Part shown: in pieces, positions 1,175-42,161 of the stretch | How the letters are laid out: each line of letters starts with the position of its first letter | Numbering within the stretch: position 1 is the stretch's first letter | From: Natrialba hulunbeirensis JCM 10989 | GTDB taxonomy: Archaea; Halobacteriota; Halobacteria; Halobacteriales; Natrialbaceae | Direction: 5' to 3' | NCBI RefSeq assembly: GCF_000337575.1 | Contig: NZ_AOIM01000037.1 | Coordinates: 62,001-126,000, forward strand | DNA: 64,000 nt | Translations under genes and position numbers: made by a program | Notes under the pieces: generated by a model | Databases searched by the model: none | Told to the model about the DNA's origin: nothing | What the model saw: only the letters and a program-made list of their open reading frames with translations

Positions 1175-2536
1175 TTACTCGTCAGACCGCGGCTCGTCTC
1201 GGAAGTACGCCTCCACCTCGAACGGCTCGCTTTCCCCTTCGACACCCGTCACGTCGAGCGCCGTCACGACCGCATCCGTCTCGAGTAGCCCCGCAAGACT
1301 CGGCACCGTGCGCCCCTCGTCGCTGCTGATGAGTTCCTTGATATAGAGGCCGCCTTCACCGTGAATCCGGACCTCCGCCTGTGTCGGCTCGCGGAGTTCT
1401 CCCTCGGCGTCGTACACTGTCCGCTCGCGGGTGAGCGCCGCCCGGCGGTGGTCGACGCGCTGGGGCGTCTCCTGCTCGACTGTCGTTCCGCGGAGTTCCT
1501 CGAGTGCCGCCTCGAAATCGCCCTCCTCGACTGGCTCGCCGAACTCGACATCCGCGCGGTAGTGCTTGCTCGCGTCGTGTTCCTTGACGCGCTCGACCAT
1601 CTCGTAGGTCGCGAGACGTAGCCCCTCGACTTCGACTGCGCCCGCAGCGGCCTCGTTGATCTCGGACTCGAGTGCGGCCACGTCGGGCGTGCGCTCGCGC
1701 GGTCGTTTCACCTCGAGAACGAACGGACGGCCCTCTTCGAGCATCCGCGCGTCGACGTCCTCGCGGCCCGCACCGTGGAAGGTCCCCTCGTCGCCGTCCA
1801 TCGCCTCGACGACGTGCGGGCGAACGACCTGCTCGACGCTGGTGTCGTACATGTAGCCAGAGCCGCCACAGTAGTCACACGGCTCCTCGCCATCGTCGCC
1901 GAGCTGGACGCCGCTGCCGCCACACTCCCGGCACGGCCACTCCGTCTGGGGAATATCGCGCTCGAGCTTGCGGTACCGGCCGTAGACGAACGCCGGGTTG
2001 ATCTGGACGTCCACCGCGTGGCTCGTGACGGAGTCGGACTCGAGTGCCTCGAACGAATCGAAGCCGTCGAGGTCGATGACGGCGAGTACGTCCGGGCGGT
2101 CGAAGTCGACCTCTGCGCCGCTTTTCGCGCCGACGCGGCGGCCGACCTCGCGGTTCATTTCGCGTTTGAGCGATTCGCCGACCTCGGGGTCGAGTCCGGC
2201 GTCCTCGCGGAGCAGTCGGTCGTTTTCCTCAACCAGTGGAGAGACCTGCGTGCCAACCTGGTAGGTCTCGAAGTGGACATTTCCGAGGGCGTCGACGATG
2301 GTGTCGGCGATGGCGTCGAAGGTGCCACAGTACCCCTCACAGACCCAGCACGTCTCCGGGTCGTCGGGTTCGTAGTCCGTATCGTCTGCCAGTGCGATGG
2401 TCGTCCGGAGTGCACGGCCACGTTCGGCGTTCGTCAGCCCGAAACTCCGGTCGGCGAAGGGCCGACCGAGACAGGAGTTACAGAGTGGACCCGTCGCGAG
2501 CAGCGCACGGGCGTTCTCGAGCGTCGTCATGCCCAT
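1175..2536 (-). CDS. pus10: tRNA pseudouridine synthase Pus10 (positions 54/55)
   Basis: Converts U54 and U55 in the T-loop of tRNAs to pseudouridine in archaea. The N-terminus has a cysteine cluster (CNSC near residue 20, later CWVCEGYC) typical of the Pus10 zinc-binding region. A THUMP-like middle follows, then a second CxxC pair (CRECGG and CDYCGG), then the catalytic segment GREDVDARMLEEGRPFVLE, with Asp in the DVDAR core. Length of about 453 residues fits the family. ATG 2536 (MGMTTLEN) and ATG 2530 (MTTLEN) are both possible starts; the longer frame from 2560 is not needed. It shares its upstream region with the divergent HtrA-like gene. TrmY, which methylates the pseudouridine made at position 54, is encoded at 6117. 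Confidence 0.93.
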   Translation of the reverse strand: MGMTTLENARALLATGPLCNSCLGRPFADRSFGLTNAERGRALRTTIALADDTDYEPDDPETCWVCEGYCGTFDAIADTIVDALGNVHFETYQVGTQVSPLVEENDRLLREDAGLDPEVGESLKREMNREVGRRVGAKSGAEVDFDRPDVLAVIDLDGFDSFEALESDSVTSHAVDVQINPAFVYGRYRKLERDIPQTEWPCRECGGSGVQLGDDGEEPCDYCGGSGYMYDTSVEQVVRPHVVEAMDGDEGTFHGAGREDVDARMLEEGRPFVLEVKRPRERTPDVAALESEINEAAAGAVEVEGLRLATYEMVERVKEHDASKHYRADVEFGEPVEEGDFEAALEELRGTTVEQETPQRVDHRRAALTRERTVYDAEGELREPTQAEVRIHGEGGLYIKELISSDEGRTVPSLAGLLETDAVVTALDVTGVEGESEPFEVEAYFRDEPRSDE

Positions 2537-2653
2537 TCGTCGGGGGGCCGCGGGTAACACGTTTTCCCTTCGGTGATTTGCGGTCGTCTGACCCGTCGGC
2601 TCGTGGCGACAGTCCTCGGTACTACAAAATAGGTCGAGTCCTAGCCCCCTCGT

Positions 2654-3754
2654 ATGAACGATTCCCGACTGGGTCGACGACAGCTTCTGGCGGCAGCAGG
2701 GGCCGGGCTTGCTGGCGTCGTCGCCGGTTGTTCTGCGCCCGATACTGCGAGTTCGATTGAGGGCAACTCATCGCACGAAATCGACCGTGATAATCTCGCG
2801 GACGGTTCGACGTACACTGACATCTACGAGTCGGTTATCGATTCTGTCACACAGGTTCGTGTCTTCGGCGTCGAGAGCCCACTGTCCGACGGTCAGGGAC
2901 GCGGCCAGGGGTCGGGCTTTCTCGTCGACGACAGCCACGTCGTCACGAACGAACACGTCGTCGCCGGTGGGCAGGAGGTTGACCTCCAGTACATCAACGG
3001 CGACTGGACGACGACCCGCGTCGTTGGGACTGACACGTACAGCGATCTGGCGGTCCTCGAAGTAGATCACGTCCCCGATACCGCAACGCCGCTTGCCCTC
3101 GCGGACCAGCGCCCCATCGTCGGCCAGCAGGTGCTCGCCATCGGCAACCCCTACGGTCTCGAGGGGTCAATGTCACAGGGAATCGTTAGCGGTGTCGATC
3201 GGACGGTCGACGCACCGGGACGCGAGTTTTCGTTCCCGAACGTCGTCCAGACCGATGCCGGTGTCAACCCGGGTAACAGCGGTGGGCCACTCGTCGACAT
3301 GAACGGCAACGTCGTCGGCGTCGTCAACGCGGCCGGCGGCGACAACATCGGCTTCGCTATTTCGGCGGCCCTGACCCAGCGCGTCGTACCCACACTCATC
3401 GAAGATGGCGAGTACGACCACTCGTTCATGGGAATCACGCTCATGACCGTCGATCGCTTCGTCGCCGAAGAGAACGACCTGCCGGAGGCAACCGGCGTCA
3501 TCATCGACGAAGTCCGTCCGCGCCAACCAGCACACGGGTCGCTTCAGGGGTCACACACGCGGACGCGACGCGGCGGGGAACCGATCCCCGTCGGTGGCGA
3601 CGTGATACTCGAGATGGACGGCGAACCGATCCCCGACCGTCACGCACTTTCGACCCACCTCGCACTCGAAACCAGCCCCGGTGATACACTCGAACTCACG
3701 CTCTGGCGTGATCGTGCGGAGACGACCGAGGAGATGGTGCTTGGCGCACGATAG
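2654..3754 (+). CDS. HtrA/DegP-like trypsin-type serine protease, Tat lipoprotein
   Basis: A 366-residue protease likely exported and lipid-anchored on the outer face of the membrane. The start has a twin-arginine signal (R8-R9) and a lipobox ending at Cys26 (VVAGC). The protease domain shows the trypsin-like triad: His101 in TNEHVV, Asp131 in YSDLAVL and Ser209 in GNSGGPLVD. A C-terminal PDZ-like segment (GVIIDEV, then GDVILEMDGEPI) would bind exposed C-termini. HtrA proteins remove or refold damaged exported proteins. It stands alone and diverges from pus10. The stop codon lies inside a degenerate tandem repeat (3750-3790). Confidence 0.92.
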   Translation: MNDSRLGRRQLLAAAGAGLAGVVAGCSAPDTASSIEGNSSHEIDRDNLADGSTYTDIYESVIDSVTQVRVFGVESPLSDGQGRGQGSGFLVDDSHVVTNEHVVAGGQEVDLQYINGDWTTTRVVGTDTYSDLAVLEVDHVPDTATPLALADQRPIVGQQVLAIGNPYGLEGSMSQGIVSGVDRTVDAPGREFSFPNVVQTDAGVNPGNSGGPLVDMNGNVVGVVNAAGGDNIGFAISAALTQRVVPTLIEDGEYDHSFMGITLMTVDRFVAEENDLPEATGVIIDEVRPRQPAHGSLQGSHTRTRRGGEPIPVGGDVILEMDGEPIPDRHALSTHLALETSPGDTLELTLWRDRAETTEEMVLGAR

Positions 3755-3790
3755 TGGATGGCGGATAGTGAATAGCGATAGCAGATTGCC
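3750..3790. repeat. 13-14-bp degenerate tandem repeat spanning the HtrA stop codon
   Basis: Three adjacent units: GATAGTGGATGGCG, GATAGTGAATAGC and GATAGCAGATTGCC. The first unit contains the TAG stop of the protease gene. The units differ in length (14, 13, 14), so copy-number change would move the reading frame only downstream of the stop. Confidence 0.7.
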
Positions 3791-4239
3791 GAAAGTCGAT
3801 CGTAAAAGTAGGGGTTGTGACTTGTACACCTCTCTGAAATCGGAAACCACGGCTCTGACAGCACACTCTGTTCTGGTTCCGACGAACTGACGATCGTTCC
3901 GCGTTCATAATTGTTTTCTCGGTGTCCTGCAGGCGACTCAGTACCGGAACCAGTCGGACACTGTTCGAGAGGGTGTGAGCGGACCGACGCCGACACCGGA
4001 TTTGCAGGCGACTATTAGTACAACTCGTCCGTTCAATCGGCTATTGCCTATCACCACCCTCACCGATATGCCCAGCCTAGTGCGGTACGTCACCCTAATA
4101 ACGGATTCGTACAGATCAGCCGCTGTTTCGTTCTTTTTCGCGGCATTGAATCGTCCGAATCGGGGAAAAGTGGCGGTCAGGATTCCGTTTGCGGCGTTTA
4201 GAGTCCCGATAACAATAGGTGGTCGCTGTCTCCACACCG
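3791..4239. other. intergenic region, no gene recognised
   Basis: About 450 bases between the protease gene and the DUF7511 gene. ORFs in all frames are short and lack domains or acidic haloarchaeal composition. An A/T-rich stretch near 4195-4218 could contain the promoter of the downstream gene. Confidence 0.45.
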
Positions 4240-35245: not shown

Positions 35246-37081
35246 TCAGACGTGCTCGTCGAGGAAGTCCGCAATCTCCGAGTAGGCCTCGATACGATTT
35301 TCGAGCTTCGAGAAGCCATGCCCCTCGTCGTCGAAGAGCAGTTTGCGGACCGGCACACCCTGCTCCGCGGCCTCCTCGGCGATCTGTTCGGCCTCACCGA
35401 CCGGCACGCGCGGGTCGTTCTCGCCGTGAAGGACGAACAACGGAGCCTCGATTCGCTCGACGTTGTTGATCGGGGAAATTTCTTCCAGGAACTCCCGATC
35501 CTCCGCGAGCGAGCCGTACTCCGCCTCGCGCAGTTCGCGCCGCCAGTCGCCGGTGTTCTCGAGGAAGGTGACGAAGTTGGCGATGCCGACGATATCGATG
35601 CCGGCCGCCCAGAGATCGGGGTACTCGGTCAGCGAGGCGAGCACCATGAAGCCGCCGTAGGAGCCGCCCTTCGCGACGATGCGGTCGGGATCGACGGCCG
35701 AGTGGTCCTGTAACCACTCCACACAGGCTTCGATGTCCGCGACGGAGTCCATCCGCTTTTCGACGTCGTCGAGGGCTGCGTAGTCTGCACCGTAGCCCGC
35801 CGAGCCACGGACGTTCGGTTCGAAGTAGCCGTAGCCCCGGTCGAGGAAGTACTGTTTGACGCTGGAGAAGGATGGCCGGCGCTGGCTCTCGGGACCGCCG
35901 TGGATATCGACGATGACCGGTGCGCCGTCGTCGCTGCCAGCCTCGGTTTCGCTCGCCCCGTCCGGAAGCGTGAGGAATCCGGGAATCTCCAGCCCGTCGA
36001 AGCTCTCGATGTGGACCAGTTCGGATTCGTCAAACGTCTCCCGCGGAATCCCAGCCGTCGGCGCGCTGGTCCAGCGCTCGGCCTCACCGGTCTCGATATC
36101 GACGACGAAGACGTTCGTGTTGACCGTGTCGCCGGTGGTCGACAGCGCGAAGCGCTCCGCATCGGGATCGAAGCTCACACCGCCGGAGACGCCGCCCGGC
36201 AGGTCCGGTTCAGGGAACTCCTCGAATTCTGTGGGCTCATCCGCATCGAACTCGCCGACAGTCAACTCCGTGTAGCCCTCCACGTTCTGCGAGTAGACGA
36301 ACCGCCCCGTCTCGTCGTCCAGCGCGATGCCGTCGACGTTCCACTCGTCAGCGACGACGGACTCGAGTCCCCCCGTCTCGAGATCGAGGTAGGCCAGCGC
36401 GAGCGTGTCGGTGTCGCCCTGGTCGGTGACGAGGTAGATGCCCTCGCCGTCGGGTGCCCAACTGGCGCTCTGGTAGCGAACGTCGCCCTCATGTGGCGTG
36501 AGGTGCTCGAGTGTTGGTTCGTCTGCCTCGAGGTCGAGCACGTACAGGTCCTGATCGAAGTTCGAGTAGGCCTGCGAGACGAGCAGTCGGGAGTCGTCGG
36601 GGCTCCAGCCGGACAGCGAGAGCCAGCCGTCGCCCTCGTAGACGAGTTCCGCCTCGTCGCCCGTCTCGTCGCGGTCCTGTACGTAGACGTCGAAGACGGC
36701 CTCGTCGCGGCGGTTCGAGGTGAACGCGAACCGGTCGCCGTCGTGGCTCCAGCCGCCCCAGCGGTGTTTGGCGTCGGGCATCGCCGTCACGTTCTCGATT
36801 GTCCCGGTCTCCGCGTCGAGTCGGAATAGCTGGGCGCGCTCGTTGCCGCCCTCGTCCATGCCGAAGATCAGTTCCGGACGCTCGGGCGACCACGAGGCGA
36901 ACGTCACCCGTTCGTCGGCGAACGTTCGCTGCTCGGGCCACTCGCGGGGTCCGGTGAGCGTCCAGACCTGTGGCGTCCCCGTCGTGTCCATCAGGAACGA
37001 GAGTTGGTCGCCGTCTGGGCCGAACGAGGCCCCGTAGGCGCTGCGAACGTTGAGATAGCGTTCGATTTCGTACGCTGCCAT
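35246..37081 (-). CDS. S9-family prolyl oligopeptidase/acylaminoacyl-peptidase
   Basis: A 611-residue peptidase. The first 370 residues form a WD40-like beta-propeller with repeated WSPDDSRL / WAPDGEG phrases, which gates access to the active site. The C-terminal alpha/beta hydrolase has the catalytic Ser474 in KGGSYGGFM, Asp in HGENDPRVPV and His in DEGHGFSK. No signal peptide is present, so it should be a cytoplasmic enzyme that degrades short peptides. Start ATG 37081 (MAAYEIERYLN) fits the family; the frame is open upstream to 37333 but that part is not protein-like. Confidence 0.93.
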   Translation of the reverse strand: MAAYEIERYLNVRSAYGASFGPDGDQLSFLMDTTGTPQVWTLTGPREWPEQRTFADERVTFASWSPERPELIFGMDEGGNERAQLFRLDAETGTIENVTAMPDAKHRWGGWSHDGDRFAFTSNRRDEAVFDVYVQDRDETGDEAELVYEGDGWLSLSGWSPDDSRLLVSQAYSNFDQDLYVLDLEADEPTLEHLTPHEGDVRYQSASWAPDGEGIYLVTDQGDTDTLALAYLDLETGGLESVVADEWNVDGIALDDETGRFVYSQNVEGYTELTVGEFDADEPTEFEEFPEPDLPGGVSGGVSFDPDAERFALSTTGDTVNTNVFVVDIETGEAERWTSAPTAGIPRETFDESELVHIESFDGLEIPGFLTLPDGASETEAGSDDGAPVIVDIHGGPESQRRPSFSSVKQYFLDRGYGYFEPNVRGSAGYGADYAALDDVEKRMDSVADIEACVEWLQDHSAVDPDRIVAKGGSYGGFMVLASLTEYPDLWAAGIDIVGIANFVTFLENTGDWRRELREAEYGSLAEDREFLEEISPINNVERIEAPLFVLHGENDPRVPVGEAEQIAEEAAEQGVPVRKLLFDDEGHGFSKLENRIEAYSEIADFLDEHV

Positions 37082-37409
37082 ACCAGACGCTGTGGCGTGG
37101 GGCCCGGTAGTCGTTTGGGTTGCGGCGAGCCCGCCAGTCAGTAGTCCGTGACTACGTGTTCTGTTACCGTCCTGCCGGCCGTCTCGTTTGCTGGGACCGC
37201 TGGCTGCCGATTCGAGACCGAAACAAAATTCGGCTTGATTCCACTCATACGGTCCGTTGGAGTTCGTTACCGGTGCTCGCTCCGACGGGACGGCGATCCC
37301 CGGAAAAACGACACCGATCCGTATCGGGGGCAAAACTCGGCTTGACTCTGGTCAGCGTAGCAGCAATTGCTGCGCTTAACAAAGGCCACTCGTCCCGTTC
37401 GTCTTCCCG
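37082..37409. other. divergent intergenic region with a diverged direct repeat
   Basis: About 330 bases. CAAAATTCGGCTTGATTC (near 37225) and GCAAAACTCGGCTTGACTC (near 37330) are two imperfect copies of one 18-base sequence about 105 bases apart. They could be paired regulator sites or a decayed duplication. No gene is seen. Confidence 0.45.
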
Positions 37410-38144
37410 ATGACAGCCGACGGTACGGATGACTCGGACCGCGCGGACCGCGCTGGGAGCGACACACCGATTTCACCTTCAGACTCTCCCTCCCCCTCTA
37501 CTGCCACCGCAGCCCCGAGCCCACCGGACGACCGGAACGGCGGCACCGCCATCGTCTTCGTCACGATCATCATCGTCCTCGCCGCCTTCGGCACCACCGT
37601 CGCTATCGTCGGCCCCGAACTGGTGGGCGGCGACACCGACACCGACACTGACACTGATGCTACCGGAGACACTGGCGGCGACCTCCTCGAGTCCATCGAC
37701 ACTGCCGATGGCGGTAGCACGGCGGAGGACTCGAGTGGGGCGGTCAATGAGTCGGACTCAGACTCGGACTCTGAGTCGAACTCGGAGGCAGCGTCGGACA
37801 CTGATTCGGATTCGGACTCGGATCCGGATTCGGAAACAGACACCGACTCACAAACGAGTGAGAACGAAACGGAGACTGACAGTGACGATGTGGCGGGAGA
37901 AGATGAGGAGACGGCTGAGTCGGAGGGCAACGAGAGCGAGAGCGACAGCAACGAGGACCAAACTGAGACTGCTCCGGACACGGACACTGAAACGGAGAGC
38001 GATCCGGAGGACGACCAGAGCGAGGACAACGAGACCGACGATGACGACGGCAGCATCTTCGACGGACTCGACTCGTTCTTCGAGGACCGGTTTGGCGGTA
38101 TTGGTGAGAGCGGTGACGACGAACCGAACGAACCAGACGAGTAG
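37410..38144 (+). CDS. single-helix membrane protein with acidic Ser/Asp/Glu repeat tail
   Basis: A 244-residue protein. About 45 polar residues lead into one membrane helix (residues 46-70, GTAIVFVTIIIVLAAFGTTV), followed by about 165 residues of low-complexity sequence built from Ser-Asp, Thr-Asp and Glu pairs (for example DTDTDTDTDATGD). The tail is likely disordered and negative, and its side of the membrane cannot be set from sequence alone. Other frames on both strands stay open across the repeats; these are shadows of the skewed codon use. I do not recognise a family. It is followed by another low-complexity gene with quite different composition. Confidence 0.65.
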   Translation: MTADGTDDSDRADRAGSDTPISPSDSPSPSTATAAPSPPDDRNGGTAIVFVTIIIVLAAFGTTVAIVGPELVGGDTDTDTDTDATGDTGGDLLESIDTADGGSTAEDSSGAVNESDSDSDSESNSEAASDTDSDSDSDPDSETDTDSQTSENETETDSDDVAGEDEETAESEGNESESDSNEDQTETAPDTDTETESDPEDDQSEDNETDDDDGSIFDGLDSFFEDRFGGIGESGDDEPNEPDE

Positions 38145-38520
38145 CAGGGTAACGAGCGACTGATCGCCGAACTCGCTGTTCGATCGACGCCGCTGGCGCC
38201 ACCTGGTATCGATTGAACCCGGAGTAATGATCGATAGCACCCGCAAGAGAGAGTGTCTCCGCTGTGAAACTGGGTTTGCGTTCACACGGCCGACCCCCAG
38301 TCTCGTGTTTCGTTCCCGCGAGTGGCGCTGAAACGGTTCAGCATCCACAGAGAAACGGTTGCATCGAACGAAATCACGATTTTCCCAGGCCTTTCTTTCT
38401 AACACAGAGGCGAGATTATAGTGTGCAGACAGCCCTGTGTTCCTGACGACCATTACGATCGTGTCTGGTGAGCATAACAAAGAACACCTCTGTCAAGTGC
38501 TACCGTCGAGGGCCGCGTTG
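38145..38520. other. intergenic region upstream of the Lys/Asp/Glu-rich gene
   Basis: About 375 bases. A TATA-like GAGATTATAGTG near 38412 would place a transcript start near 38440. That is about 80 bases before the chosen ATG at 38521 and close to an in-frame GTG at 38437. No other feature was recognised. Confidence 0.4.
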
Positions 38521-40269
38521 ATGAGAGACACAGACACTCAGAAAGCAGATGGACGCATAGGGCGAACAGACACGCGAAAACGCCTCCTGGCGGGATTGCT
38601 CACGATCGTCGTGGTCGTCGGCCTCACCGTTGCAAGCGTCGGTGGGGCAGCAGCAATCGGGGCACAAGACGACGAACCGGTCGATGCTGCCCCCGGTGAC
38701 GAACTCCTCGTCACAGAAGACTGTGAGGACGAACCACACATCACCGTCGAGAATCCGACGGAGAGCGACACTGAACTGACGATGACCTGGACCGCCGAGT
38801 ACGACCAGTTCCAGGTTCAGACCCAGGGACAGCTCCTGACAAACCTCCAGACTGAGAGTACCGCTACCGACGACGGTCAGGAGACCACCCACTCACTGAC
38901 CGTGACGGTGCCAGCGACCGACAACGTCACGTTCGTCGGTCTTGCTGATGGCACCTACGAGTTCGTCGCCACCGCGGATGGCGAGGATGTCGCCCTCGAT
39001 GAGGACGAAGTCGAACTCGAGTGCGACAGTGACGTGGACACGGCAGAGCTGTCACTCGATGAGCTCATGGACCGGTACGGACCGAACGTCGTGCTGGTGT
39101 CGTTCGTGATGGACGATGTTGACGAGACGCCGGTCGATGACGACCCGATCGATGAGCCGGAGAAAGACGATGATGCACCGGTTGAGGAGCCTGAAAAGGA
39201 CGAGAAGGATGACGATGCACCGGAGAAAGACGATGAGCCGGTAGATGCACCGGAAAAGGATGAGGAGCCAGTGGATGAGGAACCGGTGAAAGATGACGAC
39301 GCACCGGTTGAGGAGCCTGAAAAGGACGAGACGGATGACGACGCACCGGCGAAAGATGATGAACCGGTGAAGGATGAGGTGCCAGTTGACGAGAAGGATG
39401 ACGATGCACCGGTTGAGAAGCCTGACGAGGACGAGAAAGATGAGAAAGACGAGAAGCCAGTCATAGACGATGAGAAGCCCGTAACAGACGACGAGAAGCA
39501 GGTCGACAAGGTCGACAAACCTGAGAAAGAAGAGCCGGTGGCTGAACCGGAGAAGGTGAAGGCGGCTGAACCGGTTGAAGAGACGGACGAGAAGCCAACG
39601 GATGAGGACCGTGTTGACGAGCAGGACAAAGAGGCAGAGAAGGCGGACAAGGCAGAGAAGGACGACAGGGACGACAAGGACGACAAGAAGGACGAGAAAG
39701 CAGACAAGAAGGACACCGAACCTCTCGACGTTGAAGACGAAGACGAGAAGGACGAAAAGGCAGAGAAAGCGGATGAGAAGAAACACGACGACAAGAAAGA
39801 CGAGAGAAAAGCCGACAAGGACGAGCCTGAGGCAGCGGAGCTAGAGGAACCGGACGAGAAAGACGAGAAGGACAAGAAAGACGACAGAAAGGACGACAAG
39901 CACCACGATAAGAAAGATAAGAAAGACGAGGAGGACAAGAAAGACAAGAAAGAGGACGAAGAGGAAGCTGACGTGCTCGATGTCAAAGAGGACGAGGAGA
40001 AGGACAAGAAAGACACGAAGGACAAAAAGTACGAGAAAGACGACAAGGACGAGGGTGACGCCCTCGACGTTGAAGAAGACGACGAGAAGGACAAGAAGCA
40101 CGACGACAGGAAGGACAAGAAAGACCGAGACGAACCAACGGATGACGCCGCAGCGTTCGAAACCGACGACAAAAAGAAGGCTGACGCGGGACACCAGGCC
40201 AGCGGTCCGTCGTCGATGGTTGACCAGTTCTCAGACGAGATCGAACTCGCGAACGAACTGTTCGACTGA
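38521..40269 (+). CDS. exported lysine/aspartate/glutamate-rich polyampholyte protein
   Basis: A 582-residue protein. Residues 20-46 look like a Sec signal (RKRLLAGLLTIVVVVGLTV, then AAAIGAQ). Residues about 55-175 form a beta-rich domain with two cysteines (C68 and C168) that could pair. Residues about 200-545 are almost entirely Asp, Glu, Lys, Pro and Ala: first a region of DDAPVEEPEKDE-type repeats, then long DEKDKKDD-type runs punctuated by LDVEDEDEKDEK, LDVKEDEEKDKK and LDVEEDDEKDKK. Lysine is normally scarce in haloarchaeal proteins, so this is striking. The last 25 residues return to ordinary sequence. No anchor or sorting signal is seen. Function unknown; a surface bristle, spacer or binding tail is possible. 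Confidence 0.75.
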   Translation: MRDTDTQKADGRIGRTDTRKRLLAGLLTIVVVVGLTVASVGGAAAIGAQDDEPVDAAPGDELLVTEDCEDEPHITVENPTESDTELTMTWTAEYDQFQVQTQGQLLTNLQTESTATDDGQETTHSLTVTVPATDNVTFVGLADGTYEFVATADGEDVALDEDEVELECDSDVDTAELSLDELMDRYGPNVVLVSFVMDDVDETPVDDDPIDEPEKDDDAPVEEPEKDEKDDDAPEKDDEPVDAPEKDEEPVDEEPVKDDDAPVEEPEKDETDDDAPAKDDEPVKDEVPVDEKDDDAPVEKPDEDEKDEKDEKPVIDDEKPVTDDEKQVDKVDKPEKEEPVAEPEKVKAAEPVEETDEKPTDEDRVDEQDKEAEKADKAEKDDRDDKDDKKDEKADKKDTEPLDVEDEDEKDEKAEKADEKKHDDKKDERKADKDEPEAAELEEPDEKDEKDKKDDRKDDKHHDKKDKKDEEDKKDKKEDEEEADVLDVKEDEEKDKKDTKDKKYEKDDKDEGDALDVEEDDEKDKKHDDRKDKKDRDEPTDDAAAFETDDKKKADAGHQASGPSSMVDQFSDEIELANELFD

Positions 40270-40446: not shown

Positions 40447-41508
40447 ATGCGAGTCGCGTTCGTCTCTGCTGAAACGGTTTTCCACCGCGATACCGAGACG
40501 AACCGACGACTGCGGACCGTTGTCGAACTGCTCGATGACGCCGGCCACGACGTCCACGTCTACTGTACGCAGTTCTGGGACGGCGAACACGCGACGTTCG
40601 AACGCGAGGGAATTACATATCACGGCGTTTCCGTCGAACTCGAGGCCACCGCTTCGTTCCTCGTCCGACTGCCATTCGTCCTCGCCCGTGCGCGTCCCGA
40701 TATCGTCCACGTCAGCGCACAGCGACCGGGACAGGTCATCGCGGCCAGTCTCGGTGCGACGCTGGCCAGAGCGCCCGTGGTCGCCGAGTGGTACGGCATG
40801 GACGGCGTCCCAACTGATCGATGGCGCAAACTCGCCGCCCGATCCGTCGACCGAAACCTTGTCCCCTCCGAACTCGTCGCGACCTGGGTCCGCGAACTCG
40901 GCGTGAGCGAGCAGGCAGTCGACCCGATCGCGAATCCAATCGATGTCGAGCAGATCCACGAGGTCGAACCTGGCGAGCAGGCTGACGTCATCTACGCTCG
41001 CCGTCTCGACGAGGGAGCGAACCTCGAGAGCCTCCTGCTCGCGCTCGCCGAACACCGCGACCGCGACTGGCGGGCAACCGTCATCGGCGACGGCCCCGAG
41101 CGCGAGGCGTACGAACAACTCGCGAGCGATCTCCGGATCGAGGACCGCGTCACGTTCGCCGGTGACCGCTCACTCGAGGAACGAATCGCCGCCTATCGCG
41201 GCGCACACGTCTTCGCACAGACCGCCGAATACTGCGTCTTCCCGACCGAGATGCTCTGGGCGCTCGCCGCCGGCTGCGTCGGCGTCGTCGAGTACCACGC
41301 CGACTCGAGTGCCCACGAACTCGTCGAGGGCTGGGACCGGGGCTTCCGGACGACGAGCGAGGACGAACTCAGCGATACGATTATCGAGGCAGGGGGACTC
41401 GAGTACCGCGATATCGACGACGAGTTCGATGAGTACGACGGGGCGGAGATCCGGGATCGGTATCTGACGACGTATCGGGCGTTGCAGGATGCGTCGGGGC
41501 TATTGTAG
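40447..41508 (+). CDS. GT4-family glycosyltransferase
   Basis: A 353-residue GT-B fold glycosyltransferase. The start MRVAFVSAETVFHRDTETNR is the usual first strand with a glycine-poor variant. The second half has ATVIGDGPEREAYEQLA and VTFAGDRSLEERIAAYRGAHVF, which are hallmark GT4 segments, followed by TEMLWALAAGCVGVVEYH. It would transfer a sugar from a nucleotide donor, perhaps to a surface glycan. A TATA-like CTTTTTATCCC sits about 26 bases before the ATG. It follows the polyampholyte gene by 177 bases. Confidence 0.87.
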   Translation: MRVAFVSAETVFHRDTETNRRLRTVVELLDDAGHDVHVYCTQFWDGEHATFEREGITYHGVSVELEATASFLVRLPFVLARARPDIVHVSAQRPGQVIAASLGATLARAPVVAEWYGMDGVPTDRWRKLAARSVDRNLVPSELVATWVRELGVSEQAVDPIANPIDVEQIHEVEPGEQADVIYARRLDEGANLESLLLALAEHRDRDWRATVIGDGPEREAYEQLASDLRIEDRVTFAGDRSLEERIAAYRGAHVFAQTAEYCVFPTEMLWALAAGCVGVVEYHADSSAHELVEGWDRGFRTTSEDELSDTIIEAGGLEYRDIDDEFDEYDGAEIRDRYLTTYRALQDASGLL

Positions 41509-41612
41509 CGGTTTGACCGTAGTCTTTGCAGGGCAGCCCAGGACGAAGTGGCCAGCGACTGCACAGATATCCAGGCAAACAGGTATTTAATCGTTTACTG
41601 AGTGGCCTCGGT

Positions 41613-42161
41613 ATGGACGATGCTGGGAGCGCAGACGGCGGCGAGGGCGGCCAGGCGGACACCGCTGCTATCACGGACACTGAGACGGCAACTGGGACTG
41701 ATACTGATACTGATACCGATACCGACACCGACGCTGACGCGACCACCAACTCACAGCCAAACTGTGACTTCTGCCAGATAAGCACAGGTGCCGAACCCGC
41801 GGCAATCCTCTACGAAGACGACCAAACCGTCGCGTTCCTCGACCGACGACCCGCAGTCCGTGGACACACAGTAATCATACCGCGTACGCACGAAGAGGAG
41901 GTGTTACTCATGGACGAGACGGAAACCGCCGCCGTCTTCGACACCGTCCACACCGTCGCGACGGCACTCGAGTCCACCCTGGAGACGGACGGCTTCAGCG
42001 TCTTCCACACGAGCGGGCCGCTGGTCGGGACGGTCGATCACGCACACGTCCACCTGGTGCCGCGGTTCGAGGACGACAGTGTGGGCCTCTCGCTGGCTCG
42101 TCGGGAACTCGAGTCGGCGGACGCAGAAGCGATTGTAGCGGCGGTCCGCGACAAACTGTAA
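41613..42161 (+). CDS. HIT-family nucleotide hydrolase with acidic N-terminal repeat
   Basis: A 182-residue protein. The last 135 residues are a HIT domain: CDFCQIS (zinc-like pair), RRPAVRGHTVIIPRTHEEE and the histidine triad VDHAHVHLVP. HIT proteins hydrolyse nucleoside phosphoramidates or dinucleoside polyphosphates. The first 45 residues are a Thr-Asp repeat (DTDTDTDTDTDADA), matching short repeats in other genes here. The start at 41613 sits 26 bases after a TATA box (TATTTAA), so a leaderless transcript is likely. Confidence 0.88.
   Translation: MDDAGSADGGEGGQADTAAITDTETATGTDTDTDTDTDTDADATTNSQPNCDFCQISTGAEPAAILYEDDQTVAFLDRRPAVRGHTVIIPRTHEEEVLLMDETETAAVFDTVHTVATALESTLETDGFSVFHTSGPLVGTVDHAHVHLVPRFEDDSVGLSLARRELESADAEAIVAAVRDKL

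Follow-up and report, generated by a model that had tools for sequence, protein, structure and literature searches.

Among the known systems closest to the protein described here are the stalked adhesins of the Sdr/ClfB MSCRAMM type, in which a signal segment and an Ig-like domain are combined with an extended disordered part of repetitive, charged sequence, an arrangement predicted for the present protein as well. Haloarchaeal proteomes avoid lysine, usually explained by its side chain being poorly solvated when exposed on a folded surface at high salt. Among archaea, Natrialba magadii has the most low-complexity regions, 39% acidic (PMC6821194, in its available part); what is available of that survey explains halobacterial low-complexity regions by acidity and does not mention an exported lysine-rich one. 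In the accessible sources on alkaliphilic bacilli, cell-wall polymers and S-layer proteins likewise represent charged material outside the cell, which is there linked with alkaline adaptation. Literature listings on haloarchaeal proteins that are rich in lysine, disordered, polyampholytic or of low complexity contained no description of the present family.

The locus lies in a 64,000 nt stretch of the genome of Natrialba hulunbeirensis JCM 10989 (hereafter the window), and the tail of the encoded protein is a K/D/E polyampholyte, whereas the MSCRAMM adhesins carry Ser-Asp repeats. Further differences are the missing C-terminal sortase-type or transmembrane anchor (the end is amphipathic without a long hydrophobic stretch, as read by eye) and an N-terminal domain without sequence homology above cut-off in Pfam or NCBIfam. 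The material of the alkaliphilic bacilli consists, according to the same accessible sources, of polyanions or folded S-layer proteins; here, in contrast, the polyampholyte is genetically encoded, and any link with pH is tentative. On balance, we think that the protein forms a brush or tether in the cell envelope, made of a disordered polyampholyte chain that is probably exported and envelope-bound.

Gene layout and spread of the family

The open reading frame was confirmed as a genuine gene and a selected feature, not a random frame. It comprises the following parts:

38521..40269, + strand: gene of the putatively exported polyampholyte protein, 582 aa, ATG start (ORF; strong orthologs in three of the six congeners searched)
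38584..38655, + strand: hydrophobic segment of signal/anchor type, residues 22-45, preceded by an Arg/Lys-bearing N-terminus (from sequence; conserved in the family)
38698..39024, + strand: Ig-like two-Cys beta domain, residues 60-168, with Cys68 and Cys168 (alignment; all-beta in AlphaFold2)
39121..40155, + strand: polyampholyte tail, residues 201-545 (composition, charge pattern, predicted disorder)
39715..39753, + strand: sticker-like motif TEPLDVEDEDEKD, residue 399 (motif reading)
39832..39870, + strand: sticker-like motif AAELEEPDEKDEK, residue 438 (motif reading)
39967..40005, + strand: sticker-like motif ADVLDVKEDEEKD, residue 483 (motif reading)
40054..40092, + strand: sticker-like motif GDALDVEEDDEKD, residue 512 (motif reading)
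40210..40263, + strand: predicted C-terminal amphipathic helix, residues 564-581 (AlphaFold2, pLDDT <50)

ORF and composition agree with the original prediction of a signal peptide, a small two-cysteine beta domain and a tail of about 345 residues made almost wholly of D, E, K, P and A, the signal/anchor segment being read from sequence. The LDV punctuation noticed at that time was recovered as TEPLDVEDEDEKD, ADVLDVKEDEEKD and GDALDVEEDDEKD, plus AAELEEPDEKDEK. An MRD-type start is common to the homologs in the alignment, and both domain cysteines as well as the basic N-terminus with its hydrophobic segment are kept across family members. Judged from such features, the protein is probably exported.

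The AlphaFold2 model of the N-terminal domain is an all-beta sandwich (mean pLDDT 76.2). Its best Foldseek match is a carbohydrate-binding module (E 8e-4), and the best VIA-align Z of 8.4 is at the level of a common arrangement; the matches are generic Ig-like, carbohydrate-binding module, cohesin and pilin folds. Glycan binding by the tail, one of the roles first suggested, is unsupported; the weak matches of the N-terminal domain do include carbohydrate-binding modules, but they are generic. In sequence searches with the N-terminal part, the best hits reached 13.7 in Pfam (cut-off 27) and 14.9 in NCBIfam (cut-off 110), and PHROGs gave none at E ≤0.01.

When the N-terminal 200 aa were searched against 61 genomes, strong homologs were found in three of six congeners and in six other genera of the family Natrialbaceae. 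A profile matched 50 genomes at E 1e-3, of which 26 weak or partial matches were dropped as unproven; the 24 retained at E <1e-10, out of 125 Natrialbaceae genomes, fall in 13 of 29 genera. Order-wide, 392 genomes yielded 17 matches at 1e-6, namely 16 from the same family and one weak, partial match. Carriers of the gene with a name include Natrialba sp. SSL1, N. chahannaoensis, N. swarupiae, Natrarchaeobius chitinivorans, Natronorubrum texcoconense, Salinadaptatus halalkaliphilus and Halopiger djelfimassiliensis. A further carrier, N. magadii (genome G003), was recognized by an identical plasmid stretch. The 24 retained sequences come from one archaeal family, which is the Natrialbaceae going by the named members.

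Lysine in the tail and its relation to pH

The 345 residues from 201 to 545 consist of 29.0% D, 21.2% E, 20.3% K, 8.1% P, 7.0% A and 6.4% V; 243 are D, E or K, with one G, six R and neither N nor S, and the net charge is −97. As expected from the purine-rich tract reported for the coding strand, 74% of this strand is purine over the tail. The comparison of lysine fractions proposed with the original prediction set the tail at 20.3% against a pooled 1.59% (arginine 6.75%) in 339 genes sampled from the same genome, a baseline of crudely called genes covering 112,661 aa and about 404 kb. The richest stretch of 100 aa holds 32 K in this protein, and the next best among the 339 sampled genes holds 13. 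Since protein searches with the tail were insensitive and missed the tails of even two congeners, they say nothing on its uniqueness, and a DNA pattern coding for [DE]KK[DE] was used instead; 10 of its 33 matches genome-wide fall within 450 bases of this gene.

In the 18 family members with long tails, K and R stand at 847:92 over the tails, as against 39:79 over the N-terminal parts of these proteins (nominal Fisher p 1.3e-41, the residues not being independent). That lysine itself is selected, as originally supposed, and over arginine in particular, is well supported by this shift. A family using lysine over arginine at about 9:1 in its tails suggests that the lysine-avoidance rule spares disordered exported chains, and these tails offer a natural polymer for testing why haloarchaea avoid lysine. 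A lysine-rich DNA-binding protein was considered and rejected, the tail being strongly negative rather than positive over its 345 residues; DNA binding by the lysines, also suggested at first, is unlikely because of this net charge and the apparent export. A hydrophilin or LEA-like protein, defined by glycine above about 6%, was rejected as well, given the single glycine in the tail.

A possible but doubtful explanation of the lysines is alkaline adaptation: partly deprotonated near pH 10, they would buffer the surface or, in soda brines poor in Mg and Ca, provide acidic envelope polymers with built-in counter-ions. Within Natrialba, the gene is present in four genomes including that of the alkaliphile N. 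magadii, and the corresponding slot of the remaining three congeners is without it; by elimination, these three include the neutrophile N. asiatica and count as neutrophiles (pH classes of the two named species from the available part of PMC3403918). Lysine-rich tails occur in six of the seven named loci, and tails use lysine rather than arginine. Arginine would not buffer near pH 10, and we take most of the species concerned to be alkaliphiles, pH classes beyond N. magadii and N. asiatica being assumed or derived from species names. However, Natrarchaeobaculum sulfurireducens, presumably an alkaliphile, is without a tail, and lysine-rich tails are found in Natrinema zhouii (salt mine) and Halobiforma lacisalsi, both of which we take to be non-alkaliphiles. 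A clean split between alkaliphiles and neutrophiles was, therefore, given up, as it fits inside Natrialba and fails both ways beyond the genus. The available part of the N. magadii genome paper reports no genes for alkaline survival (PMC3403918), which speaks for such a role, and with this family there is a specific candidate for how the envelope of Natrialba is adapted.

The locus, its acidic partner and the upstream boxes

The neighborhood of the gene contains the following elements:

35246..37333, − strand: peptidase gene, upstream synteny anchor (synteny comparison)
37376..37384, + strand: promoter-like box TTAACAAAG, 34 nt upstream of the acidic neighbor's ATG (slot comparison)
37410..38144, + strand: partner gene for a lysine-free acidic (D/S/T/E) protein with one TM segment, 244 aa (K 0/244)
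38473..38482, + strand: promoter-like box CATAACAAAG, whose ATAACAAAG part begins 47 nt before the ATG (family comparison)
40447..41508, + strand: gene of glycosyltransferase family 4 type, downstream synteny anchor (Pfam)

In the named loci, the glycosyltransferase follows downstream in 7/7 and the peptidase precedes upstream in 6/7. We take the latter to be of S9 type from its sequence; its ORF probably starts too early, as homology covers about 615-630 aa in most relatives. The glycosyltransferase gene is present in 114 of 125 genomes, and in one (G110:C1:2057095-2058152) it is apparently split into two frames. At 41526-42161 of the window, a HIT-domain protein carries an N-terminal low-complexity extension of TDTDTD type.

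An acidic protein (K 0-0.9%) lies directly upstream of the family gene in 16 of 22 loci and was not found in the other six. ClfB and SdrC models match the partner in the window weakly and by composition, with scores far under the cut-off. The slot upstream of the glycosyltransferase was surveyed in 100 of 125 genomes, omissions including contig ends, split genes and absent glycosyltransferase matches. By a simple rule, many slots hold a lysine-free acidic membrane protein, to which the lysine-tail gene is added in some, and 31 hold neither or have an incomplete slot sequence. Three congeners lack the gene (L056, L057 and L058, i.e., genomes G004, G005 and G002), and each has in its slot a 935 aa ORF on the opposite strand; in L057, the one checked, Pfam identifies it as a subtilase that carries PA and Fn3-like domains. 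Behind the peptidase, the TTAACAAAG box is retained in all three.

The boxes CATAACAAAG and TTAACAAAG, ahead of the polyampholyte and the acidic gene, respectively, are near-identical. ATAAC(A/G)AAG was read by eye within 90 nt before the start in all 24 family rows. For (A/T)TAAC(A/G)AAG, 102 sequences (the window, the locus of N. magadii and the 100 slots) gave 41 occurrences in the forward direction and none in the reverse. All 14 ATAAC sites in the slots precede either a member of the polyampholyte family or a relative in one further genus, genome G016 (L125, oriented 2424-3875), which has the same slot, the CATAACAAAG box and a lysine-rich tail (18% K after residue 150), with an N-terminal domain barely recognizable as this family (E 8e-4). 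TTAAC sites precede the acidic protein in 22 of 23 cases, mostly at 34 nt, a position which suits the TATA element of a nearly leaderless transcript. A genome-wide regulon of the box was not found, ATAACAAAG occurring 14 times against 11 for a reversed control. The polyampholyte gene and its acidic neighbor are probably expressed jointly. A more elaborate proposal, speculative and in our view improbable, is a two-gene system of exported envelope polymers under matched promoters, of a kind not encountered in the literature searched, in which a lysine-free polyanion is paired with the lysine-selected polyampholyte, whose lysines would act as covalently held counter-ions or as a high-pH buffer replacing divalent cations in soda brines.

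Evolution and shape of the tail

Long tails, taken as those with 100 residues or more, occur in 18 of 24 distinct family members. Lysine makes up 7-27% in 17 of these long tails and 3.5% in that of L049 (Natrinema halophilum). The remaining six members, including Halopiger djelfimassiliensis and Natrarchaeobaculum sulfurireducens, have no long tail, thus it is dispensable in some lineages; on a tree of the domain, tail length has to switch between long and short four times. Repeat units vary by genus (e.g., DDDKKDGEVADK, DKVDDNVSEKDDKYDDTK, EPAEEKIEKDDKK and KHDDKND), and their best periods differ too. What the tail conserves is its make-up rather than its sequence, the repeats being genus-specific. 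In Natrialba, in-frame insertions and deletions have reshuffled the tails (protein length 531-582 aa), and the frame is held through the reshuffled repeats to a conserved C-terminus in 4/4 genomes. The last 37 residues show a dN/dS of 0.09-0.15 within the genus (five computable pairs); values for the tail were set aside due to uncertain alignment of the repeats. This conserved end includes the predicted C-terminal helix (hydrophobic moment 0.44), which is not general, as repeats form the end in most other genera. Since frame and make-up of the tail are conserved, homologs do not share the N-terminal domain alone beside a random-frame tail, the outcome named beforehand as speaking against the original prediction.

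We consider it unlikely that the tail is a functionless, neutral product of slippage in a purine tract, with the N-terminal domain alone being of importance. Tandem arrays in the DNA, the fast turnover of repeats and the existence of tail-less members would fit such an origin, as would two tail ends, in L037 (G140) and L046 (Halobiforma lacisalsi), where an apparent 3' frameshift, natural or an assembly error, turns the repeats into an Arg/Gly-rich stretch. However, codon position 2 is mostly A and position 3 mostly G+C in the 18 long tails (A 0.52-0.79 and G+C 0.54-0.81, respectively), and in the tail of the window position 2 is 67% A and 3% G, with 69% G+C at position 3. The abundance of D, E and K beside so few G, R, N and S in that tail, the frame kept up to the C-terminus in Natrialba, and the lysine-rich tail which G016 keeps beside its diverged domain also argue against slippage. 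It is very unlikely, in our opinion, that the lysines donate amines for covalent cross-links in the envelope; the near exclusion of arginine by lysine would agree with it, but in the vicinity of the gene no enzyme for such cross-linking was noticed.

Regarding the shape of the chain, opposite charges are not enriched at i+4 over residues 201-545 (z 0.6) and are depleted at i+3 (z −3.1), and the alternation of E and K with opposite charges at i/i+4 that marks a single alpha-helix (ER/K) domain is, therefore, absent. The charged single-helix rod offered earlier is very unlikely: E and K are abundant and residues 371-545 have only 2.3% proline and a mean helix propensity of 0.49 kcal/mol, but this very part lacks i+4 pairing (z 0.4) and is depleted at i+3 (z −4.7), residues 201-370 contain 14% proline, D is more frequent than E in the tail as a whole, and the full-length AlphaFold2 model, built on a four-row alignment with pLDDT nearly all <50, has no helix in residues 199-563. 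Opposite charges are mixed more evenly than in shuffled sequences in 18/18 long tails (z −1.2 or lower in 17), although tandem repeats by themselves push this score toward even mixing. Charge pattern and model favor a disordered coil over a rod, and the tail is predicted to be disordered.

For the brush or tether that we prefer, the hydrophobic N-terminal segment and the small Ig-like domain would sit at the cell side, and the chain of about 345 residues, with D/E and K evenly mixed, would reach outward or fill space under the S-layer. Because its opposite charges are well mixed, such a chain is expected to remain extended and hydrated at molar salt without having to be purely negative. In Natrialba, the C-terminal amphipathic helix and four to five short hydrophobic motifs may make contacts; hydrophobic residues amount to 9 of 175 in the part 371-545, mostly inside the LDV/LEEP motifs. 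This would make the chain a salt-proof brush, spacer or tether, which the cell probably produces along with the adjoining lysine-free acidic membrane protein. A surface location is likely on these grounds, and the surface bristle proposed originally is plausible. Hydrophobic motifs of another type, ending in (L/M)VNxP, were seen twice in each of the tails of three relatives, L021, L022 and L040.
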